DNA of 21,106 nucleotides from a virus. Under the pieces are notes generated by a model, which saw only the letters and a program-made list of their open reading frames with translations, was not told the origin of the DNA and made no database searches. The stretch spans positions 1 through 21,106 of IMG/VR virus record IMGVR_UViG_3300003823_000021. One strand, given 5' to 3'. This document shows positions 1 to 13,462 of the stretch, one piece after another (within the stretch, counting starts at the first letter, position 1; every line of letters starts with the position of its first letter). The position numbers were made by a program, and so were the translations under genes.

Positions 1-204
1 GGTATGTCGGCGGCGGACGGCGCCTTTGCGTCTAGGGGGCGGGGATTCTCATGGTCCATCTCCGGGTGGGCTGGATGCGTATCGTAACAGGCGCACTGCC
101 CTGCCCCCTTTACACCCACGCACAGGCCGGCTACAGGAATGGCCATGAACACGACAGCGCCTCGACCGACGACCTGAGGGCGTAGCCACTGGCTACGCTC
201 GGAT
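1..204. other. Leader without a convincing gene; hairpin before tRNA-Pro
   Basis: No reading frame here looks coding. One frame is open from base 1 to a stop at 85-87 and another from base 2 to about 150, but neither gives a recognisable peptide, so a truncated upstream gene cannot be excluded. At 181-197 there is a perfect 7-bp hairpin (CGTAGCC, loop ACT, GGCTACG) ending seven bases before tRNA-Pro. It has no T-tract, so it is not an intrinsic terminator; a role in tRNA 5' processing is only a guess. A packaging site could lie here because terminase genes follow, but nothing in the bases shows one. Confidence 0.35.
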
Positions 205-280
205 CTGGGTGTAGCTCAAGTGGTAGAGCGCCTGCCTTGGGAGCAGGAGGTTGTAGGTTCAAGTCCTGTCACCCAGACCA
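205..280 (+). tRNA. tRNA-Pro (anticodon TGG)
   Basis: A complete 76-nt cloverleaf. The acceptor stem CTGGGTG/CACCCAG pairs at all seven positions and begins with the C1-G72 pair typical of bacterial proline tRNAs. The D-arm is GCTC/GAGC with loop AAGTGGTA, and U8 and A9 are present. The anticodon stem CCTGC/GCAGG carries loop CTTGGGA, giving anticodon TGG (238-240). The variable loop is 5 nt. The T-arm has the standard TTCAAGT loop, two G-U pairs at its base, and the CCA end is encoded. It would read CCA and probably other CCN codons. It is followed by the candidate ribozyme and by a second tRNA about 0.9 kb downstream. Confidence 0.96.
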
Positions 281-299
281 GTTTGAAATCGAAGTAGAA

Positions 300-469
300 G
301 AGAAGATAGACCGTGGGTGCGCGTGGGAGTACAGCGCACATCTGGCCCGGAACCCGAAACGGCTGACGATTGCCTGAGATGGCATGAAACGCGAAAGCGT
401 CCCGTGGAGTCCTCCGATCCGGGGAATAACTGAGGACCTGAGGCCCACATACCCACGATCTATCTTCTT
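300..469 (+). other. Long imperfect inverted repeat enclosing the ribozyme
   Basis: Bases 300-317 and 452-469 are complementary over 18 positions, with one G-U pair at the outer end and one C-A mismatch (311 against 458). In RNA this makes a long stem closing a domain of about 170 nt. Inside it, TGCGC (318-322) pairs with GCGCA (334-338), and the hammerhead occupies 346-423. GTCCTC (409-414) can also pair with GAGGAC (432-437). That pairing would cross distal stem I, so it implies either a pseudoknot or an alternative fold. The right arm ends two bases before an ATG at 472 and 41 bases before the preferred start of the next gene. Confidence 0.7.
346..423 (+). ncRNA. Candidate type I hammerhead ribozyme
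   Basis: The strand carries the hammerhead core in the right order. CTGACGA (363-369, consensus CUGANGA) is followed by stem II TGCC/GGCA (371-374 with 381-384, loop TGAGAT). Next come GAA (386-388) and stem III ACGC/GCGT (389-392 with 397-400), closed by a GAAA tetraloop. C401 is the H17 position, so cleavage is expected between 401 and 402. Proximal stem I is ACGG/CCGT (359-362 with 402-405). After an internal loop stem I continues as CCCGGA/TCCGGG (346-351 with 418-423). With stems II and III closed by loops and stem I open, this is the type I arrangement. One flaw is that the first stem II position is T370 opposite T385, where most hammerheads have G-C. The internal loop of stem I and loop II could supply the usual tertiary contact. 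Self-cleavage is inferred, not shown. Confidence 0.78.
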
Positions 470-510
470 TTATGGAAGCTATCACCCAGACCAACATATC
501 GAGGGTAGTT

Positions 511-732
511 ATGGGCGACGATGTCGAAGCGATGAAGTCCAACCGCAAGCTGCAGTCGGCCATGAAGAAGCGCCGGCTTGAGGCTGAGCACAATGAGCGG
601 ATGGAGAAGCTGTACGCTTATTACGCCGGCACCGAGGTTCCCCTCAGTCGCGTGGCGCAGCGCCTCGGCGTGGGCGAGATGGTTGCGATGAAGAAGCTGT
701 CAGACTATGGGCGTCGTGTTTCGCCGGATTAG
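511..732 (+). CDS. Small HTH-like protein, function unknown
   Basis: A 73-residue basic protein. I prefer ATG 511, which has a GAGGG purine run about seven bases upstream, over the in-frame ATG 472, which has no SD and sits at the foot of the long RNA stem. Residues about 9-38 are a charged, probably helical segment rich in Lys, Arg and Glu. Residues about 45-66 (from LSRVAQRLGVGEMVAMKKL) have the spacing of a helix-turn-helix, with a central LGVG turn. I do not recognise the family. A DNA-binding or regulatory role is inferred from the fold pattern only. It lies between the candidate ribozyme and the HNH gene, and its frame uses many G/C-ending codons. Confidence 0.6.
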   Translation: MGDDVEAMKSNRKLQSAMKKRRLEAEHNERMEKLYAYYAGTEVPLSRVAQRLGVGEMVAMKKLSDYGRRVSPD

Positions 733-774
733 CTTATTTTCTTGTAGCAGAGCATCTCACTTTAAGGTAGTGTT

Positions 775-793
775 CTTCCTCTCGGCGAGGAAG
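775..793 (+). promoter_or_regulatory. Hairpin sequestering the HNH ribosome-binding site
   Basis: CTTCCTC (775-781) and GAGGAAG (787-793) form a perfect 7-bp stem with loop TCGGC. The right arm contains the SD sequence GAGGA of the next gene, whose ATG is at 798, so a folded transcript would hide that SD. In T4-type phages, homing endonuclease genes such as I-TevI are known to be translationally repressed by hairpins over their ribosome-binding sites. The same logic is inferred here. Confidence 0.65.
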
Positions 794-797
794 TATT

Positions 798-1190
798 ATG
801 CCCACGCACAAAACGTACCCATGCCTAAACTGCGGAGTCACAGTTACTCGGGTGAACACGATGGGCAAGTATTGTTCGAACAAGTGCCAGCATGCGCACA
901 CCAGAGCGCAGAAAGTCACTTGCGGAACAGCAAGCCATGCCTCCGTCAGGCGGTACCTTTTGGACACTCGCGGGAGGCAATGTCAAGAGTGCGGCATTGA
1001 AGGATGGAACGGCAAGGCGCTGACATTCGAGCTTGAGCACATTGACGGGAACGGGGACAATAACAACCTTATCAACCTATTGATACTATGCCCGAACTGC
1101 CACTCGCAGACGGATACGTACAAAATCCGCAATAGGGGTAACGGCCGTCACCAGAGAAGGGTGCGGTACGCCGAGAAAAAGAGTTTTTAG
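798..1190 (+). CDS. HNH endonuclease, probably homing-type
   Basis: A 130-residue protein with two zinc-ribbon-like parts. An N-terminal CxxC pair (CLNCG, residues 9-13) is followed by a CxxxC (YCSNKC, near 25-30). The C-terminal HNH unit has CQECG (near 62-66), ELEHIDGNGDNNNLINL (near 78-94) and CPNCHSQ (near 98-104). The EHIDG His and the later Asn and His give the metal-binding, DNA-cleaving site of the HNH family. SD GAGGA lies 5-7 bases before ATG 798, inside a hairpin. Base composition is visibly lower in G+C than in the neighbouring structural genes, consistent with recent acquisition. The TAG stop (1188-1190) directly abuts tRNA-Thr. It may be a free-standing homing endonuclease. Alternatively it may be a packaging partner, since HNH proteins encoded beside terminases are known in some phages, for example HK97 gp74. 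Confidence 0.9.
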   Translation: MPTHKTYPCLNCGVTVTRVNTMGKYCSNKCQHAHTRAQKVTCGTASHASVRRYLLDTRGRQCQECGIEGWNGKALTFELEHIDGNGDNNNLINLLILCPNCHSQTDTYKIRNRGNGRHQRRVRYAEKKSF

Positions 1191-1266
1191 GCTTCAGAAG
1201 CATTGCTGGCGATGCGCCGGATTTGTAACCCGGAGACAGGGGGTTCGATTCCCTCCTGAAGCACCA
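1191..1266 (+). tRNA. tRNA-Thr (anticodon TGT), slightly atypical
   Basis: A 76-nt cloverleaf with perfect acceptor stem GCTTCAG/CTGAAGC, D-stem GCAT/ATGC and anticodon loop TTTGTAA, giving anticodon TGT (1224-1226) for ACA codons. The T-arm loop is TTCGATT and CCA is encoded. Two departures from canon are visible. Position 8 is A instead of the almost universal U, and the bottom pair of the anticodon stem is an A31-C39 mismatch. Both could lower folding stability or be repaired by modification. The 5' end follows the HNH stop codon with no spacer, so RNase P processing would cut the shared transcript exactly behind the HNH reading frame. Confidence 0.9.
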
Positions 1267-1361
1267 CTCGATCCCCACATCCGGCACCATTCTCTTCTGT
1301 CACTTCCCAAGAGGCGGCTGATCCATTACATATTGGGCCGTTACGCGAAGAGACGAGAGCT

Positions 1362-1967
1362 ATGCCCAAAAAACCACCAGCCGAGCCGAGACTCTCGAAG
1401 AGCCCGTTGGCGCGCATGCGCCCTGACGGCGGGGTTATTCCGCTCCCTACGCCTGCGCACGAATACGACGACGTGACGGCCGCGATGGTCGAGCGCCTGC
1501 GCGCTGGTGGCCTGCGCAAGGATCAGGTGGCCAAGCTGGTCGGGGTGAGCCTGCCCACGGTCGAGAAGTATTACGGCGAAGAGATGCAGGCCGGCACGTC
1601 GTCCCTGATGACGAAAATCGCCTCGAACATGGCCGTCATCGCGCAGGATCCGGGGCACAAGCAGTCTGTCGTGGCCGGCAAGTTCATGCTGAGCCGGCTG
1701 ATGCCCGAGGTGTTCAGCGAGAAGCAGCAGATCCAGTTTCTGGGCAAGGACGGTCGGCCGATTGACCCTCAGCAGACGACCACGCTCGACCCTTACCAGT
1801 TGACCGACGAGCAGCGTTACGCGCTGCGCGAGGCGGTGTCCGGCGTGCTGCGCGAGGCCATCGACGAGGCCAGCGGCTATCGGCAGTCTCAGGTTCCGGA
1901 GGCTGACTACACGATGATTTCGGACGGGACCGACGAGGCGGAAGTCGAAGAGATCGACGACGAATGA
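1362..1967 (+). CDS. terS: Terminase small subunit (TerS-like)
   Basis: A 201-residue protein immediately before the large terminase gene, with which it shares an ATGA overlap. Residues about 52-71 (RKDQVAKLVGVSLPTVEKYY) read as a helix-turn-helix, the DNA-recognition element expected in small terminase subunits. The middle (about 75-120) is helical and could form the oligomerisation core. The C-terminus is strongly acidic (EAEVEEIDDE), a common feature of segments that contact the large subunit. TerS forms a ring that binds the packaging site and stimulates TerL ATPase activity. The assignment rests on position, size and the HTH. ATG 1362 has only a weak purine run (GAGAG) upstream. Confidence 0.82.
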   Translation: MPKKPPAEPRLSKSPLARMRPDGGVIPLPTPAHEYDDVTAAMVERLRAGGLRKDQVAKLVGVSLPTVEKYYGEEMQAGTSSLMTKIASNMAVIAQDPGHKQSVVAGKFMLSRLMPEVFSEKQQIQFLGKDGRPIDPQQTTTLDPYQLTDEQRYALREAVSGVLREAIDEASGYRQSQVPEADYTMISDGTDEAEVEEIDDE

Positions 1968-3688
1968 GCCGGTTGATCGACATTGGGGGTGGGGTTCTGA
2001 TCGACCCGAGCGAGCAGCTTCGGCTTCTCGAGCGGTACGATTACGAGAACAGCCTCTATGACTTTCTGGTCGGCGCGTGGCAGCACATTGACGCCTCGCC
2101 GTGGAAGGACGGCTGGCCGATTGAGGCTGTGGCCGAGCACCTGCAGGCCGTGGTCGATGGCGACATCAAGCGGCTGGTGATCAACATCCCTCCGCGTATG
2201 GGCAAGTCATCGATCACGTCTGTGGCCTTCCCGGCTTGGACGTGGGCGCAGACGGAACGGTCGGCCACCTCGGGGCCTCAAGTCCAGTTCCTCTGCGCCT
2301 CATACGGTTCGTCTCTGGCGATGCGCGACTCCGTGAAGTGCCGCCGACTGATCGAGAGCCCGTGGTACCAGCGGTATTGGGGCGACCGCTTCAAGCTGAC
2401 GTCCGACCAGAACACCAAGGGGCGCTTCCTGAACGATCAGCGCGGCGAGCGCCTGATCACCTCGGTCGATGCGAAGATCACCGGCGAGGGCGGCTCGATC
2501 ATCATTGTGGACGACCCGAACGCGGCGAATGAGGCCTTCTCGGAGGCCAACATCCAGTCCACGATTGACTGGTGGGACGGGACGATGAGCACCCGCCTCA
2601 ACGACCAGAAGACCGGCGCGATGATCGTGATCCAGCAGAGGCTGGCCGAGAACGACTTGACCGGCCACATCCTCGACAACGACACCGAGGGCGAGTGGAC
2701 CCACCTTGTGCTGCCGATGCGGTACGAGTGGGAGCGCCACTGCTCGACGGTCATCGGTTGGGAAGACCCCCGCGGCTGCGACGACGACGGAGAGCCGCTG
2801 GTCAAGATCGGTGAGACAGGGGTCCGTGAGCCTGTCTCGCACAAGGCCGAGGTGGCTCTGAAGGAGCGGCAGGGCGAACTGCTGTGGGATGAGCGGTTCG
2901 GCGAGAAGGAAGTGGCCCGTCTGGAGCGCGTGCTGGGGCCGTATGGCGCCGCCGGCCAGTTGCAGCAGCGCCCCGACCCGCCGGGCGGCGGCGTGATCAA
3001 GCAGGAGTGGTGGAACCTGTGGGAGCACAAGGCCTATCCGGGGATGGATTTCATCTTGGCATCCCTCGATACCGCCTACACCACCGTCAATTCCAATGAC
3101 TTCTCGGCCTTGACCGTCTGGGGTGTGTTCACCGAAGACTTCAAGGCGCAGGAGATCCGGTCCTTTATGAAGGGATCGGGGGCCAGACAGGTCGAGCGCA
3201 CCTACGTTGAGGGCTCGCCGAAGCTGATGCTGATGCACGCGTGGCAGGAGCGGCTCGAGTTTCACCAACTGATCGAGAAGGTGGCCGACACCTGCCGGCG
3301 TTTGCGTGTAGATAAGCTGCTGATTGAAAATAAGGCCGCGGGTATTTCTGTGTCGCAGGAAATGCGGCGACTGTATAGCAGCGCAAGCTGGGCTGTTCAG
3401 TTGTCCGATCCGAAGAGTATGGACAAGCTATCGCGCCTCATTTCTATTCAGCATCTTTTTGCAGAGGGTTTGATCTTTGCGCCTGACTATTCGTGGGCGC
3501 AGGAAGTCATCAATCAGGTCGCGATGTTCCCGAAGGGGAAGCACGACGACTTGGTCGATACTGTGAGCATGTCGATCCGACACTTGCGCGATCTGGGGCT
3601 TCTGACCCGCACCGCGGAACGAATGGAGGAACTTGAGTCGCTGAAGGTGTACCCCGGCAAGGGGCCGGTGCCGCTATATCCGGCGTGA
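1964..3688 (+). CDS. terL: Terminase large subunit (ATPase-nuclease)
   Basis: A 574-residue DNA-packaging motor. The N-terminal ATPase has Walker A PPRMGKSS (residues 76-83) and Walker B IIIVDDPN (179-186). The C-terminal RNase H-like nuclease has three acidic stations: LDTAYT (Asp369), LLIENKAAG (Glu455) and KHDDLVDT (Asp528, Asp529). Together these are the full set expected of a functional terminase that cuts concatemers and translocates DNA through the portal. Length is within the usual range. The start overlaps the terS stop by four bases. From about 3300 to the end of the gene the codon choice shifts to more T/A-ending codons than in the first 1.3 kb, a possible recombination trace. The nuclease residues remain intact across it. 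Confidence 0.97.
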   Translation: MSRLIDIGGGVLIDPSEQLRLLERYDYENSLYDFLVGAWQHIDASPWKDGWPIEAVAEHLQAVVDGDIKRLVINIPPRMGKSSITSVAFPAWTWAQTERSATSGPQVQFLCASYGSSLAMRDSVKCRRLIESPWYQRYWGDRFKLTSDQNTKGRFLNDQRGERLITSVDAKITGEGGSIIIVDDPNAANEAFSEANIQSTIDWWDGTMSTRLNDQKTGAMIVIQQRLAENDLTGHILDNDTEGEWTHLVLPMRYEWERHCSTVIGWEDPRGCDDDGEPLVKIGETGVREPVSHKAEVALKERQGELLWDERFGEKEVARLERVLGPYGAAGQLQQRPDPPGGGVIKQEWWNLWEHKAYPGMDFILASLDTAYTTVNSNDFSALTVWGVFTEDFKAQEIRSFMKGSGARQVERTYVEGSPKLMLMHAWQERLEFHQLIEKVADTCRRLRVDKLLIENKAAGISVSQEMRRLYSSASWAVQLSDPKSMDKLSRLISIQHLFAEGLIFAPDYSWAQEVINQVAMFPKGKHDDLVDTVSMSIRHLRDLGLLTRTAERMEELESLKVYPGKGPVPLYPA

Positions 3689-4287: not shown

Positions 4288-6618
4288 ATGGATAACGGCC
4301 TCGGTGCTCCCCTGATGAACATGCGAATGCCGGGGCCGGATCAGGAAGACCCCGATCTGGACTCGATTGTTATCTCCGACGCCGATCCCGAGCCCGACAC
4401 CCACAAGGAAGACGACAAGGGCAACGTCATCGAGATCGAGCACGCCGATGGATCGGTGACAATCTCGCTCGATGACTCGCCTTTGATCTCGGGCGAGGGC
4501 GGTGCCGGCGACGATGGCGGCTGGTTCGACAATCTGGTGGACAAGATCGACCCGATGGAGCTCTCGGCCATCTCCGAGACCCTGATCCGCGGCATCGAAG
4601 AGGACATCGAGAGCCGCAAGGACTGGATCGAGGACCGCACGCAGGGCCTGAAGCTGCTTGGCCTCAAGGTCGAGCTGCCGGGCGTCTCTGGCGCCTCCGA
4701 CGGCGCCCCTGTCGAGGGTATGTCACGCGTCCGCCACCCGCTTCTGCTCGAGGCCGTGCTGCGCTTTCAGGCCAACGCGCGCTCCGAGATGCTTCCGACC
4801 GACGGTCCGGTGAAGATCCGCGTCGATCAGGTGTCCGACACCCTACAGACCGACCAGTTGGCCAACGCTCTCGAGCGCGACTTCAACCATTACCTGACCT
4901 CCACGGCCACCGAGTATTATCCCGACACCGACCGCATGCTGCTGATGCTGGGCTTCGGCGGCACGTCCTTCAAGAAGGTCTACTACTGCCCGCTGCGCAA
5001 CCGGCCGGTGTCCGAGACCGTCGATGCCGACGACCTGATCGTCAACAACGACGCGACCGACCTCGACAACGCTAAGCGCATCACGCACCGGCTGATCATG
5101 CGGCCGTCCGTTGTGCGCCGCATGCAGATCCTCGGCGTCTACCGCGACGTGTCGCTGGGCGAGGCCAAGCCGCGCAACCTCGACTCGTTCCAGCGCGAGG
5201 AGAAGGAGCAGCAGGGGCTGGCGCCTGAGGCATCGAACCCCGAGGACCGCGACCGCGAGATCTACGAGTGCTACTGCGAGCTCGACCTCAAGGGGTTCGA
5301 GCACAAGTACAAGGGCAAAGTCTCCGGCCTCGAAGTGCCCTACTGTGTTACTATTGACGTTTCGTCGCGCGAGATCCTTTCGATTGTACGCAACTACGAT
5401 CAAGAGGATCCCGACAATCTGCCCGAAGCACGCAAAGTATTCGTCAAGTATACTTTCGTGCCGGGCATCGGGTTCTACGACATTGGCCTGCTCCACATCT
5501 TGGGGAACACGACAAACGCTATCACGGCTGCTTGGCGTGAGCTGCTGGACGCGGGGATGTACTCGAACTTCCCCGGCTTCCTCATGGCCGACACGGGGGC
5601 GAGGCAGAACACGAACATCTTCCGCGTTCCTCCGGGGGGTGGCGCGTTGGTGAAGACAGGCGGCCTGCCGATCAAGGACGCCATCATGCCGCTGCCGTAC
5701 CAGCCGCCCAACGTCGCGATGATGCAGTTGGTGCAGGACATGGCCCAGACCGGCATGCGGATTGGTGGCACGTCGGAGCTTCAGGTCGGCGAAGGCCGGG
5801 CTGACGCGCCAGTGGGGACAACGCTGGCCTTGATCGAGCAGGCCACCAAGGTTCTGGACTCGGTGCACAAGCGCATGCACGCGGCTCAGGCGCAGGAGTT
5901 TCAGGCCCTGAAGCAGCGGTTCCGCGAGTACCCGAACAGCTTCTGGGAGCGCAACAACCGGCCAAATCAGGACTGGGATCAGCAGACCTTCCTGCAGGCG
6001 CTGGAGAACTGCGATCTCGTCCCGCAGGCCGACCCGAACACCGCTTCGCACGGCCAGCGGGTGATGAAGATCATGGCCCTGAAGCAGCTCCAGCAGCAAA
6101 ACCCGTCGATGTACGACCCGATTGCGGTCGATACCGCGGCGCTGCAGGCAATCGGCTGGAGCAACCCCGAGCAGTTCCTCGTGCCGCCGAACGCGCAGGC
6201 CGCGCCGCCGCCCGAGTTGATCCAAGCTCAGGCCAAGATGAAGAACGACGAGACGGACGCTCAGGCGCGGATGATGGAGGCGCAGGCCAAAGTCGCCGAG
6301 ACGCAGGCCAAGATCCAGCAGGGCGCCTTCGCGCCGAAGCCGCAGGGCGGGCTGGGTGGCCCGGCTCAGCCGCAGGAACCGACGCCGATGCAGCTTGCGG
6401 AACTCAAGATCAAGCAGATGGATGCTGCGACCCGCGCTGAGGCCGTCGGGATCAAGCACCACGACACGATGGTCGAGGACCAGAACCGCGATCTGGACCG
6501 CCAGAGCCGCGAGCGTGTCGAGCTGATGCAGTTGGCCAAGGAAGTCTTGACCCACCCTGAAGGCGTTGCAGGCGCCGAGCGTGGCGTCAGCAAGCTCAAG
6601 AAGGACGTCAGCGAATGA
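4288..6618 (+). CDS. Portal protein, long type with coiled-coil tail
   Basis: A 776-residue protein. ATG 4288 is preferred because AAGGA lies six bases before it; a TTG two codons upstream has no better support. Residues about 1-90 are acidic and low-complexity. The body (about 95-600) has the pattern of large P22-like portals, for example IEEDIESRKDWIEDRTQGLK and VRHPLLLEAVLRFQANARSE, followed by a wing/stem region. The C-terminal 140 residues are Gln/Ala/Lys-rich with repeated AQAKxxE units, consistent with a coiled-coil barrel. Portals form the dodecameric ring at one capsid vertex, bind TerL during packaging and later the neck proteins. A stretch near 5340-5470 uses more T/A-ending codons than its surroundings. 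The stop overlaps the next start by four bases. Confidence 0.92.
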   Translation: MDNGLGAPLMNMRMPGPDQEDPDLDSIVISDADPEPDTHKEDDKGNVIEIEHADGSVTISLDDSPLISGEGGAGDDGGWFDNLVDKIDPMELSAISETLIRGIEEDIESRKDWIEDRTQGLKLLGLKVELPGVSGASDGAPVEGMSRVRHPLLLEAVLRFQANARSEMLPTDGPVKIRVDQVSDTLQTDQLANALERDFNHYLTSTATEYYPDTDRMLLMLGFGGTSFKKVYYCPLRNRPVSETVDADDLIVNNDATDLDNAKRITHRLIMRPSVVRRMQILGVYRDVSLGEAKPRNLDSFQREEKEQQGLAPEASNPEDRDREIYECYCELDLKGFEHKYKGKVSGLEVPYCVTIDVSSREILSIVRNYDQEDPDNLPEARKVFVKYTFVPGIGFYDIGLLHILGNTTNAITAAWRELLDAGMYSNFPGFLMADTGARQNTNIFRVPPGGGALVKTGGLPIKDAIMPLPYQPPNVAMMQLVQDMAQTGMRIGGTSELQVGEGRADAPVGTTLALIEQATKVLDSVHKRMHAAQAQEFQALKQRFREYPNSFWERNNRPNQDWDQQTFLQALENCDLVPQADPNTASHGQRVMKIMALKQLQQQNPSMYDPIAVDTAALQAIGWSNPEQFLVPPNAQAAPPPELIQAQAKMKNDETDAQARMMEAQAKVAETQAKIQQGAFAPKPQGGLGGPAQPQEPTPMQLAELKIKQMDAATRAEAVGIKHHDTMVEDQNRDLDRQSRERVELMQLAKEVLTHPEGVAGAERGVSKLKKDVSE

Positions 6619-9600
6619 AGCTCGACCCCAAAGCCATCTCCCGCGCGCTGAACATTGCGAAGCGGATCGGGGAGAACATCGACCCCGGCTTTGGGGGCGT
6701 CAATTTTCCCAAGGTGGGAACTGGCGTGCCTCTGGTGCGCAAGTCCGGTGGGCGCACGGGGTACTCCGACGGCGGCTCACAGGGCGACCCGCGGCTGGGC
6801 CAGCAGCATGCCGAACCTGAGCCGGATTACTCCGCTCCCGACAGCTACATGAACATGTACAGCAAGGCGGCCGACGTTGCCTCCAAGCTGCCGATGAAGC
6901 AGGCCTCGCCCGAGCAGTGGAAGGCCACGCTCCTGAACAAGGGCGTGAAGCCGGCTGAGCTCAAATGGTCCGAGTTCGACAGGCGGCTCGGAGACAAGCC
7001 GACGGTGAGCCGCGAAGAAGTCGCGCGCCACTTCGACATCTATCAGCCCGACATCCACAAGACCGAACTGCGCGGGCCTGACACGAAATACAGTGCACAC
7101 ACCTTGCCGGGGGGTAAGGAATACCGAGAGGTTTTGCTCCACGAAGCCAATCCGGACGAAACGCGCCATCTGTCTTCGCATTGGACGCAGGTCGGCGGAA
7201 ATTATAATCCTTGGGATGACACGGATGAACCCGAAGATATTCCCGACGTCTACGTTCACGCCCGCCTGAAGGATCGCGAAACACCCGACCGAAAGAAGGT
7301 TCTGCATGCCGAGGAGCTGCAGAGCGACTGGGGGCAGGAGGGGCGCAAGAAAAGCGACGGGACCGGCGGCTTCCGCGACCCGGATTGGAGAAAGGTGCGG
7401 CAGGATACCGAGGCGCAGGACCGCTTCAAGGATTACATCCGCGACCTGTCGCAGCGCACGGGCATGCACATCGAGCCCGAGCGCCCTTATCCCGATATTT
7501 ACGATGCTGCCAGAAAGACGGGGGAGCTGGAACAGGTCTTCGAGCATGGCCGTAACGTGAAGGCGGAAAGAGAAGCCAACCTCCGCCGCCTGAACGTGCC
7601 TGTTGAAGGCCCTTATGTCGGCAGCACCAACGACTGGGTCGATCTCGGCCTGAAGCACCTGCTCTCGCACGCCGCGGCGAATGGCCATGAGCATCTGGCG
7701 TGGACGCCGGGTGACATGCAGGCGACCCATTACCGTGAAGACAACGAGACCAAGCAGGCTGCCCGCGTCAAGGGCATGCAGAAGTTCTACAACGAGATCG
7801 TGCCGAACCGCTTGCTGAAGCTGGCGCGGATGCACGATCCCGAAGCGCGTCTGGGAACCGTTCAGACCAAGGAACCGGAACGCGCTTCCAGCGACCCTCG
7901 CGGCTCCTACACCCTTCCCTCGCTCGAGATCACGCCGCGGATGCGCGAGAGCATTCTCAAGCACGGCTTTTCGGCCTACGCCAGCGGTGGCTCGGTCGAG
8001 GGATATGAGGATGGCGGCACGCCTGAACCTCACCCGCTGACCAACCCGGTCTATCACGGCACCAAGGGCGAATCGGTTTCGTCCCCGATGGCCAGCGGGT
8101 TCAATATGGAGATGTTTGACGCCCAGCATCCCTCACTGGATTACAATGCCGAGAACGTGACGGCTCTCGCGCTTGGGCCGCACGTTGCGCGTGACCCCAA
8201 CATTTCCGGCGACTACCGCTTCACCACGGGGGAGGAGCACAAAGAAGGCGGGCGCAAGCCGCTGTACGCCCAAGGTAAGGTGATGATGCTCAACACCTTC
8301 CCCGATGAGAAGTTCTTCCCCGTCAAGCAGAAGCTCAATGACGACGGATCGCCTATTCGCTTCAGAGAAGACAATGACGACAATGCCGTTTACAACACCG
8401 TTTATGCGGACGTGTTCCGACACAACCCAAAACTTGCCCACGAAGTTTTGACAGGTCACGGGTACGACCCAGAGACGGCCAGCGAATATGTGAAGGGCTT
8501 CCAGTCCGGCAAACCCTTTGCCGACCCCTACATGGGTTCTTCCCGGTTTCCGTATCGGGATATTGAGCACTTCCTCTCAAGCCACAGGACGTTGAAGCCG
8601 GGTGAGCGCAATATCAAGAAGGTGGTGAAGGATTTTCGCAAGCGCATGCGGGATCGGGGATACGTTGGCCTCAGCTACATCAACACCGACGATGACGAAA
8701 CCGCGAACGCCGAAGACAGGAAGTGCTACATCGTGTTCCCTCAGCGTGACAAGCAGACCGGCTGGTACCCCCTGCGGATGAAGCACGCTGCCTATGATCC
8801 GCAGGAAAAGGCTAGTTCGGTTTTGACCCGCGCTGACGGCGGCGAGACCGACGCGCCTATGGCCATGTCTGCTGCTCGCGAAAATGTACCCGGCATCACT
8901 GTTTCTCCGCGCCCCGGCAAGATGGGTGGCTACCCCGTCCGTGAAGGCACAATGGATGAGCATGAGCCTTGGACATACGCAGCAGAGCCGGGCGAGCACA
9001 TGCCTTCGCCCCCTCCAATTCAGGAGCCGGTGTACAATTCTCCGCGCCTTGATCGCCTGCACAGGCTGACGGCGCCAATTTTCAAAAGCAAGGGCTTCAA
9101 CGACCTCGTTTATGATCTGACCGGCCTTCGCAACCTGAAGGTCAGCCCGATTCATGGGACGTGGAAGGGCGAGGCCGAGCCTTCTTTTCATATCAGTCAC
9201 CCCGACCTGACTGCCGAGCATGTCAGCAAGCTTGCGCCGTTGCTGGGGTTTGGTTTCCAGCAGGATGCGGTGGTCCACCATCACCACAACGCGGACCAGC
9301 AGGGTGACGGCATCCCGGCATATTATATCGGGAAGGGGTCAAAGCTTTCCCCTAAGGATTTGCAGAGGATCACGGAAGCCGCCCAGAAGGAGGGGCTTGA
9401 TTACTCGCAAACTTCTGATGGCAGGGGTGTAAAGTTTTTGCATTTCGGTGATGATGGCGAAGACCTTGACAGGTTCGACAGATCTGTCGATAACATCGCC
9501 AACGCATCGGGCTTGCCGCACAGGCATATCGTTAAGACTTCAGGAGACCTTCAAAATGCGCAGGACTATCTCCCCGCAATCTTTGGCTCGGTGGGAGGAG

Positions 9601-11362: not shown

Positions 11363-12823
11363 ATGTCCGAACACCTGAAGCAAGCCCGCAAGTCCATGAA
11401 GGACAAGATCTCGCGCTACATGGAAAAGGGCGAGGGCGCGGTTGACGCTTCGGGGTACGTCGTCCCCGACTTCCTGAACGTGGGCGTGAAGACCGGCGCT
11501 CGGCCGCTGACCCGCAAGCTGTACAAGCGCGGAGGCTCGGTCAAGGCTACGGGCACCGAAGCCGAAGGCAAGAAGGCCAAGCACCACGCTGGCCGCAAGG
11601 CGCGCAAGAGCGGTGGCGCCAGTGTAGTCAAGGACTACATCAACCGCGACCAGCGCGAAGCCAACGAAGATCGCGAGGGCGTCAAGCACCTCGGCGCCTA
11701 CAAGCGCGGCGGGCGTACCAAGAAGGCTGACGGCGGCCTGATGGGGCCGGGCCTGTATGGCATGCAAAGCCAGCCCACTTCGAGCCGCATGAGCAAGGCC
11801 GCCGGCCTGAAGCGCGGCGGCCGCGCTGCCGGCGGCGAAGCTTACGACGATTCTGACATGGATGACGGCATGGATTTCGGCGCCGCCAAGCGCGGTGACG
11901 TCAAGACCATCTACCCGCCGAAGACCCCGATCAAGACCCGGCCGCTGCCCAGCCAGCAGCCGAAGCCGCGCCCGTTCAACGATCCCGATGGCGAGCGCAT
12001 CCCCACCGACGCCGACGTCAAGCGCATGATGGGCTATAAGCGCGGCGGCAAGATGCCCATGAAGGAGTGGGAGGGCTCGCGCAAGGATCTGGTCGAGGAT
12101 AAGAAGCTGGCCAAGAAGCACCACATGACCTTCAAGGAGTGGGAAGCTTCGGATCTCGACAAGAAGCACGACAAGCAGCAGAACATGAAGGGCCTGAAGC
12201 GCGGCGGCTCGGCTGACCATCCCCACGGCTGCCGCTGCGAGCGGTGCTGGGGCGGTCGCGCCAAGCGCGCCTCGGGCGGCGGCAACTGGATCAAGGAAGC
12301 CGTCAAGCATCCCGGAGCCCTTCACAAGTCGCTGGGCGTCTCTGCGGGCGAAAAGATCCCGGAGAAGAAGCTCCTTCGCGCCGAACACAGCAGCAACCCT
12401 GTGACGGCCAAGCGCGCTCGCCTCGCCGAGACGCTGAAGAAGCTCCCGCACAAGAAGGGTGGAGGCTCTCTCTCGGTCAGTGACGGTGAATTGGAAGGCA
12501 CTCGTCCGACCGGTGACCGCCTCGCCCGCAAGGCTGGTGGCCGCGCCAAGGGCAAGACCAACATCAACATCGTGATCGCGACTGGCAAGGGCCAGCAGCC
12601 GATGGGCGGCCTTGGCCCCCAGCCCGGCATGCCGCCTCAGCAGCCGATGGGCCGCCCTGTGCCTGTCGCGCCTCCGGCTGGTGCTCCGGCCGCCGGCGCT
12701 CCGATGCCGATGCCCATCCCGATGCCGATGCCTTCGGGCGCCCCTGCCGGGGCACCTCCGATGGGTCGCAAGTTCGGTGGCCGCAGCACTCACAAGGAGC
12801 ATCGCCTGCTCCACAAGAAGTAA
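11363..12823 (+). CDS. Basic disordered protein with K-R-G-G repeats
   Basis: A 486-residue Lys/Arg/Gly-rich protein starting at ATG 11363 after GGAGACA. KRGG occurs at residues 55-58, 114-117, 150-153, 226-229 and 279-282. Variants KSGG, KKGG, KAGG and KFGG occur at 82, 364, 390 and 470. Two similar units of about 24 residues lie at 234-281, each beginning KEWE followed by a charged KK-rich helix. A CRCERC cluster (290-295) could bind metal. The last 90 residues are a Pro/Met/Ala-rich tract ending with a basic tail. Little regular fold is expected. Residues 66-85 match a block in the 127-residue protein at 18271 (17 of 20 identical). The location before the scaffold and capsid genes suggests a head-associated or DNA-binding role. 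I do not recognise a characterised family. Confidence 0.85.
12701..12732 (+). repeat. CCGATG hexamer repeat within the basic protein gene
   Basis: Five consecutive hexamers follow the pattern CCGATG (third unit CCCATC), encoding the alternating Pro-Met run in the C-terminal tail of the 486-residue protein. Such a repeat may change in copy number by slippage. It preserves frame at any whole number of units. Confidence 0.8.
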
Positions 12824-12830
12824 GGAGAAA

Positions 12831-12852
12831 GGGCGTCCCCGAGGGGGCGCCC
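12831..12852 (+). terminator. Strong GC hairpin after the basic protein gene; weak terminator
   Basis: GGGCGTCCCC (12831-12840) and GGGGGCGCCC (12843-12852) form ten pairs, one of them G-T, with a minimal GA-centred loop. It starts seven bases after the TAA stop. The following bases (ATTCATTATG) lack a real T-tract, so strong intrinsic termination is doubtful. An mRNA-stabilising or processing hairpin is equally possible. Its right arm holds the only nearby G-rich SD-like sequence for the next gene, so folding would also mask that SD. Confidence 0.5.
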
Positions 12853-12859
12853 ATTCATT

Positions 12860-13060
12860 ATGATGAATATCAGCACACTATTCGAAGCCGAACTGAAGAA
12901 GATGATCGACGAGGAGCTGCAGCGAATTGCAGAAAAACTCCTCGTGGGCTTTTCAATTGACGACATGGGCCAATATAAGCACGAGACGGGGCGAGTCGCC
13001 GCCCTGCGATGGATCTTGGACGCCTGCGACGAAGTGAATGAAATTATTGCCAAGAAGTAG
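12860..13060 (+). CDS. Small acidic helical protein, unknown
   Basis: A 66-residue protein; ATG 12860 and ATG 12863 are adjacent candidates. The only SD-like sequence is the G-run in the preceding hairpin, about ten bases upstream, so translation may depend on upstream ribosomes opening it. The chain reads as two amphipathic helices (about 5-30 and 41-64) with a short IDDMGQYKHETG link. The second helix includes GRVAALRWILDACDEV, a pattern seen in many small phage proteins of unknown function. Eight bases of spacing precede the GroES-like gene SD-start region, so the two are probably co-translated. Confidence 0.68.
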   Translation: MMNISTLFEAELKKMIDEELQRIAEKLLVGFSIDDMGQYKHETGRVAALRWILDACDEVNEIIAKK

Positions 13061-13069
13061 GAGAATACA

Positions 13070-13462
13070 GTGCCTCATATGATTATGGATCATGAAACGG
13101 ATCCGAAGAAGCAAATCTGGGACAAGGTCGGGAGCCTCGAGGATTTTGCGATTGCGAACAATCAGGTTCTCGTCGCCATCTACATCCGCCCCGAAAAGAC
13201 CAAGTCGGGCATCGTCCTCCCCGACAACTACCGCGACGAAGACCGGTATCAGTCGAAGGCCGCCCTCGTCCTCAAGAAGGGGCCTGTCGCCTTCAAGGAA
13301 GAGAACCCCGAGTGGTTCGCCGACTTCGACATCAACGTGAACGATTGGGTGGTCTACCGGCCGTCTGATGGCTGGGCCATTACCATCAATGGCGTGCCCT
13401 GCCGGATGGTCAAGGACACCTCGATCAACATGCGAGTCCCCGCCCCTGACGCCGTTTGGTAA
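13070..13462 (+). CDS. GroES-like co-chaperonin (Cpn10 family)
   Basis: A 130-residue protein starting with GTG 13070, supported by AGGAG six bases upstream; in-frame ATGs at 13079 and 13085 are poorer. Residues 31-70 follow the co-chaperonin pattern: NQVLVAIYIRPEKTKSGIVL, then PDNYRDEDRYQSKAALVLKK. This corresponds to the core strand, the mobile-loop region with the SGIVLP motif that docks on GroEL, and the strand leading to the GP turn (KKGPVAF). A second part, NDWVVYRPSDGWAITINGV, matches the later barrel strands, and MVKDTSINMRV the last strand. It is longer than bacterial GroES (about 97 residues), as phage versions often are. The likely role is to work with host GroEL in folding the capsid protein encoded 2.6 kb downstream, as T4 gp31 does. 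Confidence 0.86.
   Translation: MPHMIMDHETDPKKQIWDKVGSLEDFAIANNQVLVAIYIRPEKTKSGIVLPDNYRDEDRYQSKAALVLKKGPVAFKEENPEWFADFDINVNDWVVYRPSDGWAITINGVPCRMVKDTSINMRVPAPDAVW

Follow-up and report, generated by a model that had tools for sequence, protein, structure and literature searches.

Positions 298-471 of the window (the whole stretch of viral DNA analysed, 21,106 nucleotides) probably encode a structured phage RNA with a two-pseudoknot core and a plugged-in hammerhead ribozyme, most likely a stable RNA from tRNA arrays and late transcripts. Judged from sequence comparison, the hammerhead is one module of a larger folded RNA that is common to many unrelated phages. If this reading is true, the RNA represents a new class of widespread phage RNA, made across very different hosts and sizes. 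It would join a textbook ribozyme to an RNA architecture of phages of actinobacteria, a cyanobacterium and enterobacteria, and would provide natural examples of a hammerhead used as a module and of the circular permutation of a pseudoknotted RNA. A further example would be the A-A and U-U mispairs that recur at a normally paired hammerhead position.

The earlier note on this DNA had described a type I hammerhead at 346-423, and reading of the letters showed that all the parts are present in the order claimed (Table 1). The nucleotides C3 U4 G5 A6 N7 G8 A9 and G12 A13 A14, the A15.1-U16.1 pair and H17 were found both in the letters and by a strict descriptor (CUGANGA, stem II, GAAA, stem III of four pairs, U16.1, H17 and stem I of three pairs, with 10.1/11.1 left free). 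The descriptor fits the window at exactly one place, on the + strand, and fits none of 300 dinucleotide-preserving shuffles of the whole window searched on both strands. The T370/T385 pair, placed in the note at the top of stem II, is a mispair at the core end of this stem (positions 10.1/11.1), and this U370/U385 mispair beside the core could slow or stop cleavage. The proposed two-part stem I stands for its inner part, whereas the outer pairing (CCCGG 346-350/CCGGG 419-423) belongs to helix B of a pseudoknot, which is crossed by helix A. Compensatory changes, for which the note had suggested looking in homologues, were observed in all three stems (double changes at 1, 2 and 2 pairs of stems I, II and III, respectively, in the aligned relatives), with the core kept. 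The stems are 100% paired in the chosen rows, a value that holds for these rows since L032, L033, L040 and L119, which have degenerate or replaced inserts, were omitted from alignments A2 and A3 (see below).

The significant Rfam covariance score that the note had also proposed as a check was not reached by the window copy. Searches with Rfam 15 gave no hammerhead match in the whole window at the gathering score or in window 281-500 at E values up to 10, and a search of the relative L115 gave no hammerhead match either. The copy in L035 matches Hammerhead_1 weakly, with 24.7 bits vs. a gathering score of 34. As the window copy fails both on the Rfam score and on the 10.1-11.1 base pair used as a filter by Perreault et al. 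(PMC3088659), it is not filed as a standard type I member. By sequence and predicted structure, 346-423 is nevertheless a hammerhead, for which cleavage is predicted.

The hammerhead is embedded in a scaffold with two pseudoknots, in which helix A crosses helix B and PK2 crosses P3 (Table 1). From 5' to 3', the elements run CGUGGG, P3, a PK2 strand, CAUCUGG, a helix B strand, the insert, GYGGAGU, helix A, the other helix B strand, GAAUAACU, the other helix A strand and the other PK2 strand, and all of them are present in the window. The PK2 register varies among copies, and that of the window is best read as 323-327/444-448. Covariance model R2, built from A3 with the window excluded, matches window 312-454 with 107.4 bits and an E value of 1.2e-27, the sole match in the window. 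Positions 298-318 and 451-471 form an inverted repeat of 90% complementarity, and a nearly identical stem is present in L099.

Table 1. Features of the RNA and its neighbours in the window (percentages are pairing in alignment A3; T stands for U in DNA letters).
Feature	Positions	Strand	Basis and remarks
tRNA-Pro(TGG), upstream neighbour	205..280	+	ARAGORN, Rfam
Outer closing stem P1, 5' arm	298..310	+	pairs with 459-471, 13 bp
Whole conserved double-pseudoknot RNA with embedded hammerhead	312..454	+	covariance model R2
Conserved CGTGGG	312..317	+	in 47/47 rows of A2, where the row parse had required GTGGG
P3, 5' arm	318..322	+	pairs with 334-338; 100% paired; double changes at 5/5 pairs
PK2, 5' arm GTGGG, in P3 loop	323..327	+	pairs with 444-448; ~80% paired; double changes at 7/7 pairs; window register by eye
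P3, 3' arm	334..338	+	covariation
Conserved CATCTGG	339..345	+	alignment A2
Helix B, 5' arm	346..351	+	pairs with 418-423; 99.6% paired; covaries
Hammerhead stem I, 5' arm	360..362	+	pairs with 402-404; 100% paired; third pair switches between G-C and C-G
Hammerhead core CUGACGA (C3-A9)	363..369	+	letters; core kept in 91/118 relatives
Hammerhead stem II	370..385	+	U-U mispair 370/385, helix 371-374/381-384, loop TGAGAT
Hammerhead core GAA (G12 A13 A14)	386..388	+	letters
Hammerhead stem III with GAAA loop	389..400	+	389-392/397-400; A15.1-U16.1 is 389/400; 100% paired and covarying in aligned relatives
Predicted cleavage site after C401 (position 17)	401..402	+	predicted from hammerhead anatomy
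Hammerhead stem I, 3' arm	402..404	+	covariation in relatives
Conserved GYGGAGT, here GTGGAGT	404..410	+	A2, in which GGAGT was part of the search pattern
Helix A, 5' arm	409..414	+	pairs with 432-437, crosses helix B; 100% paired; covaries
Helix B, 3' arm	418..423	+	covariation
Conserved loop GAATAACT	424..431	+	A2; 18-21 of 21 copies per base in the independent sample
Helix A, 3' arm	432..437	+	covariation
PK2, 3' arm CCCAC	444..448	+	letters, covariation
Outer closing stem P1, 3' arm	459..471	+	inverted-repeat search
Second copy of tRNA-Pro 3' end	479..493	+	14/15 nt identical to 266-280; probably a decayed tRNA
HNH endonuclease gene, downstream neighbour	798..1190	+	PHROG 10822, E 1.4e-25
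Terminase large subunit gene	1964..3688	+	PHROG 38, E 1.5e-80

A distant blastn search of annotated phages with window 1-2400 gave top matches to 338-444 in the Arthrobacter phages Karkharias and Constance (79%) among the best 20 of 481 records, the other rows of these 20 being tRNA and terminase matches. A narrower query also matched Mycobacterium abscessus prophages and phage Gaia, and gave weak matches to an Enterobacter phage (E 0.2) and to a Microcystis phage (E 0.05), both of which were confirmed with a covariance model. When the blastn relatives were aligned, conservation proved highest outside the hammerhead, and two helices were seen to cross each other. Most relatives were gathered by scanning IMG/VR with a pattern of two conserved 3'-half stretches (17 bases fixed), which gave at least 120 stretches. 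Among the matches listed, 60 of the 90 distinct cores parse into one architecture, 58 of them under the length limit. Alignment A2 contains 47 copies, the window (replacing its copy L001) and 46 others. The remaining 11 of the 58 were omitted as near-duplicates (L024, L100, L124) or for odd length or odd or degenerate inserts (L032, L033, L034, L040, L065, L075, L081, L119). Alignment A3 (45 copies) is A2 minus the window and L099.

Comparison of these copies establishes the double-pseudoknot fold as a covariation model. In A2, 95.5% of the 1404 cells are paired; double-change cells number 351 vs. 97 in shuffles, and slid versions pair at 44.5% at most. A3 gave the same 95.5% and 333 double-change cells, with none of 500 shuffles as high on either measure and slid controls at 34-45%. 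One of the five pair measures, extra pair types, was not above shuffles in A3 (81 of 500 as high). Of the 35 invariant columns of A2, most owe their invariance to the way the copies were collected, as the pattern fixes 17 bases and the parse demands further motifs. Because of this bias, a second scan was made with the 5' half only. It gave 49 stretches and 26 new loci, 25 of which carry the complete RNA (E < 1e-17; the exception is L187), 21 of these copies being distinct. In these 21 copies, collected by the 5' half only, conservation in the 3' half reaches 90% or more in 21 of 55 columns, with 11 columns invariant, and each base of GYGGAGU except Y is kept in at least 18 of 21. Pairs that the first pattern had fixed change on both sides in this sample (for example, in L181, L184, L202 and L183), and helix A shows further double changes.

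Among 91 distinct cores with helix A from the 3' pattern, 82 have CGTGGG and CATCT, upstream in 70 and downstream in 12. The set used for counting comprises 118 distinct copies, which are not phylogenetically independent and include an L068 copy matching the window. A near-exact core and a matching helix A were required, by which variants such as L186 were dropped. By order, 89 copies are standard, 15 permuted and 14 unclassified.

Minimum-energy folding of 290-475 indicated an unusually stable stretch (z -4.5, 0 of 200 shuffles). Isolated pieces did not give the model fold with the program used, which cannot represent pseudoknots, and their excess stability is little or none (z of -0.8 and -1.8 for pieces of the window and of -0.3 and 0.1 for those of two relatives). 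No Rfam 15 family fits the scaffold at gathering or permissive thresholds in the window or in hammerhead-bearing and compact relatives, and no account of the scaffold RNA was found among the open-access papers listed in literature searches. The scaffold is thus apparently a phage structured RNA family not described before, and the novelty rests on the scaffold. As laboratory phages such as Constance and Gaia carry a copy, the scaffold RNA is open to study now.

The neighbours named in the earlier note, tRNA-Pro and the HNH and terminase genes, were confirmed by ARAGORN and Rfam and by PHROG. The window, from an IMG/VR virus record, also carries tRNA-Thr (ARAGORN) and portal and major head genes (PHROG), and at 13070-13462 it encodes a GroES-like co-chaperonin (PHROG 3188, E 9e-11). 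The piece at 479-493 looks like a decayed tRNA of an array, as a whole tRNA-Thr lies at the same place in L099. No promoter-like site was found at window 1-2000. A tRNA is present within 300 nt in 35 of the 118 copies, vs. 9.3% for random positions in the same loci, and the nearest tRNA is on the same strand in all 35. In eight copies, the next tRNA begins 47-54 nt past GYGGAG. Proximity to a tRNA is not clearly commoner in copies without an intact hammerhead (11 of 27 vs. 24 of 91, Fisher p 0.16).

Forty neighbour proteins, taken as the largest open frames within ~700 nt and thus not always the nearest genes, were compared with PHROGs. Sixteen have an assigned function, ten of them in head formation or packaging, from seven loci: TerL (L016, L073, L091), portal (L016, L073), TerS (L028), scaffold and major head proteins (L014), a head protein (L029) and a head protease (L032). 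In L016 and L073, TerL is upstream and portal downstream of the RNA. The others are antiterminator Q (L074), a DNA methyltransferase (L080), a helicase loader (L124), a GtrB-like protein (L106), a protease (L075) and a lytic tail domain (L090). A Pfam search placed a tRNA-synthetase core domain upstream of the RNA in L036. Terminator-like sites closely follow only 9 of 101 copies (control 1.2%) and precede 4 of 101, so that most copies are not obviously free-standing genes, and a link to intrinsic terminators was rejected on these counts.

Outside viral records, the RNA is seldom found. Among 5426 complete E. coli genomes, 15 have a permuted copy, and in the one genome whose context was examined it lies in a lambdoid prophage between antiterminator and holin genes. 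GTDB genomes gave 44 pattern stretches, 10 of them true by the model (E < 1e-14). In whole-record searches of 25 phage records, 22 had the RNA once and 3 had a single permuted copy, matched as its two halves.

The strong conservation of the 3' half in the 5'-half sample suggests a binding or catalytic site, and the three-pair stem I abuts the conserved GYGGAGU, a position from which the scaffold would be well placed for gating. The scaffold might thus act as a switch for the hammerhead, through binding of a ligand or a protein, making the whole a natural allosteric ribozyme that controls late or tRNA transcripts. However, the gene neighbours are widely different, unlike those of typical metabolite riboswitches, and the hammerhead-free copies retain the same core. 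We consider this reading unlikely.

The hammerhead itself is an optional part of the family, as the distribution of inserts among the copies shows. An intact hammerhead is present in 91 of the 118 copies, 18 have a short loop only, and the inserts of the other 9 do not pass the strict test. By eye, the failures are clear in L032, L040, L053 and L119 and narrow in L064 and L194, while L033 has a core insertion, L023 is a variant and L057 meets a contig end. The earlier note had held that its hammerhead would be refuted by homologues in which the core is lost and the flanks are conserved. Such copies exist in part, 18 without a hammerhead and 9 failing the strict test, all with the scaffold kept. 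This loss speaks against cleavage being the purpose that is conserved and leaves the hammerhead reading of the window unaffected, and the scaffold, which persists without the hammerhead, is the conserved entity.

These counts bear on whether the element is an ordinary type I hammerhead that cuts the tRNA-bearing RNA from the HNH/terminase mRNA, with the surrounding helices merely closing stem I. The core and stems fit and covary, the location is between tRNA-Pro and the packaging genes, and same-strand tRNA neighbours occur in 35 of 118 copies, all as expected from this explanation. However, the surrounding RNA is kept without an intact hammerhead in 18 to 27 of 118 copies, 83 of 118 are not near a tRNA, and the surrounding RNA would bind both products together. 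A cut at 401/402 is expected to nick rather than release, because helix B, PK2 and the 13-bp outer stem pair across it. The note's proposal that cleavage splits the tRNA-bearing RNA from the mRNA for the HTH, HNH and terminase genes is therefore doubtful unless these helices are melted, and the explanation as a whole is quite unlikely.

The cores of the 91 hammerheads are CTGATGA in 53, CTGACGA in 28, CTGAAGA in 9 and TTGATAA in one, in which the C3-G8 pair is replaced by U3-A8, a swap described for hammerheads in the available text of Perreault et al. (PMC3088659). Position 17 is C in 54, A in 33 and U in 4. Positions 10.1/11.1 are G-C in 53, A-U in 1, G-U in 1, A-A in 24, U-U in 9, C-A in 2 and U-C in 1, that is, paired in 55 and unpaired in 36, with A-A or U-U in 33. 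The U-U of the window is of the same kind as these 36 unpaired cases. According to the available text of Perreault et al. (PMC3088659), hits with a mispair at 10.1/11.1 were rejected; the window copy would be discarded by this filter because of its mispair. We infer that such copies may have been partly overlooked for this reason, yet 55 of the 91 are paired. In a subgroup (L015, L046, L056, L065, L106, L113), stem III of the hammerhead is much longer and the insert is large.

The hammerhead could also be a decaying passenger, impaired here by the U-U mispair, so that only the scaffold matters and no cut occurs in the window phage. The 18 copies without insert, the 9 that fail the strict test and the missing 10.1/11.1 pair in 36 of 91 otherwise intact hammerheads agree with such decay. 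However, stems I-III covary and are 100% paired in A3 (from which degenerate copies were omitted), the core is kept with a compensating U3-A8 swap, and the hammerhead is kept in all 15 permuted copies. The stem covariation and the kept core with its swap point to selection for the hammerhead fold, and mere decay is distinctly unlikely.

A chance resemblance or sampling artefact is scarcely credible: although a pattern fixing 17 bases and a motif-demanding parse force invariance on most of the 35 invariant A2 columns, it is refuted by the empty shuffles, by the E value of the model that excluded the window and by the independent 5' pattern, which recovered the RNA at 25 of 26 new loci, where previously fixed positions show double changes.

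The scaffold fold also occurs in circularly permuted order, as judged from the order of its conserved parts. Fifteen of the 118 copies are classed as permuted, with the 5' half following the 3' half. A hairpin connects their usual ends, and the hammerhead's own loop is the site of the new ones. Model R1 gave two matches in swapped order in 13 of the 23 sources searched. The copy in L064 was flagged as permuted in an earlier parse, is unclassified in the 118-copy set and narrowly fails the strict hammerhead test. In the permuted copies, the hammerhead is placed so that the predicted cut would create the 5' end of the RNA.

The favoured reading is a stable RNA with an optional end-former, proposed because the scaffold is conserved without the hammerhead, the two halves would be clamped in the window and the 5' end would be freed in the permuted copies. 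In the window, as in most copies, the hammerhead is inserted in the loop between helix B and the conserved GYGGAGU. The RNA would be transcribed together with tRNA-Pro and the packaging genes, and the scaffold may supply the stem I contact that is missing from the three-pair stem I. As anatomy and covariation suggest, cleavage would follow C401 and produce a 2',3'-cyclic phosphate as well as a 5'-hydroxyl at CCGUGGAG. In the window copy, both halves would stay clamped by helix B, PK2 and the outer stem, giving a nicked but intact particle. The scaffold is proposed to be matured from tRNA arrays and late transcripts as a stable phage RNA, for which the hammerhead would be a self-contained, optional processing tool that sets one RNA end. 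On balance, we favour a double-pseudoknot particle of ~105 nt with a conserved function of its own in phages of very different hosts and sizes, with the plugged-in hammerhead and the permutation at the same permissive loop and the cut making a 5' end. The particle is perhaps a trans-acting stable RNA that works alongside the tRNAs and tmRNA of the phage translation kit, or else a new ribozyme or aptamer whose backbone may, or even must, be nicked.

Compared with RF00163 (Hammerhead_1), the insert has the same CUGANGA/GAA core, A15.1-U16.1, H17 and three helices in type I order, but its stem I has only three pairs and is embedded in a pseudoknotted scaffold, and 10.1/11.1 is often A-A or U-U. 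GOLLD and ROOL are structured phage RNAs in tRNA-rich loci. The scaffold RNA resembles them and tmRNA as a structured phage RNA in such loci, and predicted permuted tmRNA genes share contigs L050 and L116 with it. However, it has no Rfam match to any of these families. A tmRNA match of Rfam in L035 lies beside the scaffold RNA and is below threshold, and neither ARAGORN nor Rfam found a tmRNA in the window. Theta ribozymes have the HDV fold; their fold and catalytic motif differ from those of the scaffold RNA, and no HDV-family match was found in window 281-500 and two relatives at E values up to 10.

By analogy, theta ribozymes are the nearest functional parallel to the scaffold RNA: according to the available text, these HDV-like ribozymes of gut phages are self-cleaving, lie beside tRNA genes and are proposed to process tRNA 3' trailers (PMC10879173). 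Its main text does not contain the word hammerhead. Hammerheads in phage intergenic regions, as in the window, were described for PaP3 and Bcep176 in the available text of Perreault et al. 2011, where processing of long phage transcripts was suggested (PMC3088659). With model R2, PaP3 had no match and Bcep176 scored at noise level (6.9 bits, E 4.1), so at the sensitivity of R2 both are without the scaffold. As far as the available text describes it, HRIMA-1 likewise combines a hammerhead, pseudoknots and permutation, but its permutation is non-circular and re-orders the hammerhead itself, whereas in the scaffold family the hammerhead keeps its ordinary order and the scaffold around it is permuted (PMC10085705).

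Several other assignments were rejected. A riboswitch was rejected as the gene neighbours are too varied. The stable RNAs C and D of phage T4 were rejected as relatives, the T4 tRNA locus giving no match with model R1 at E values up to 1. Group I intron, RNase P RNA, HDV-type and tRNA-like readings were dropped by eye, the basis being the absence of Rfam hits.

Tandem copies are present in L182 (237-339 and 349-447, both compact) and L198 (2732-2876 and 2560-2697, - strand, both with a hammerhead). The permuted tmRNA genes predicted by ARAGORN on RNA-bearing contigs are at 6387-6770 (-) in L116, with the tag ANESTFLKVA, and at 12665-13142 (+) in L050, with the tag ANDNIYALVA; ARAGORN also predicted one in L042, but with an implausible tag. 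In lambdoid loci of the L035 type (L035, L077, L089, L107, L207), the RNA is closely preceded by a tmRNA-like tag frame, ANDDVVLMAA, which is also found in L132 and L134. The same frame is present in phages ST1UNAM and IME11, with other stem contents and no model match. The late leader of phage lambda upstream of holin S (L135, ~1444-1519) has a closing stem as around the permuted RNA of L035, with different contents. The same closing stem encloses other contents in L134 (2574-2662), L132 (2592-2671 and 2783-2890) and L133 (2576-2685), which suggests an exchangeable noncoding module in several phages. An array of noncoding modules in near-identical stems occupies 1370-2230 (-) of L127, one of which is a permuted hammerhead RNA and another a tRNA-like piece.
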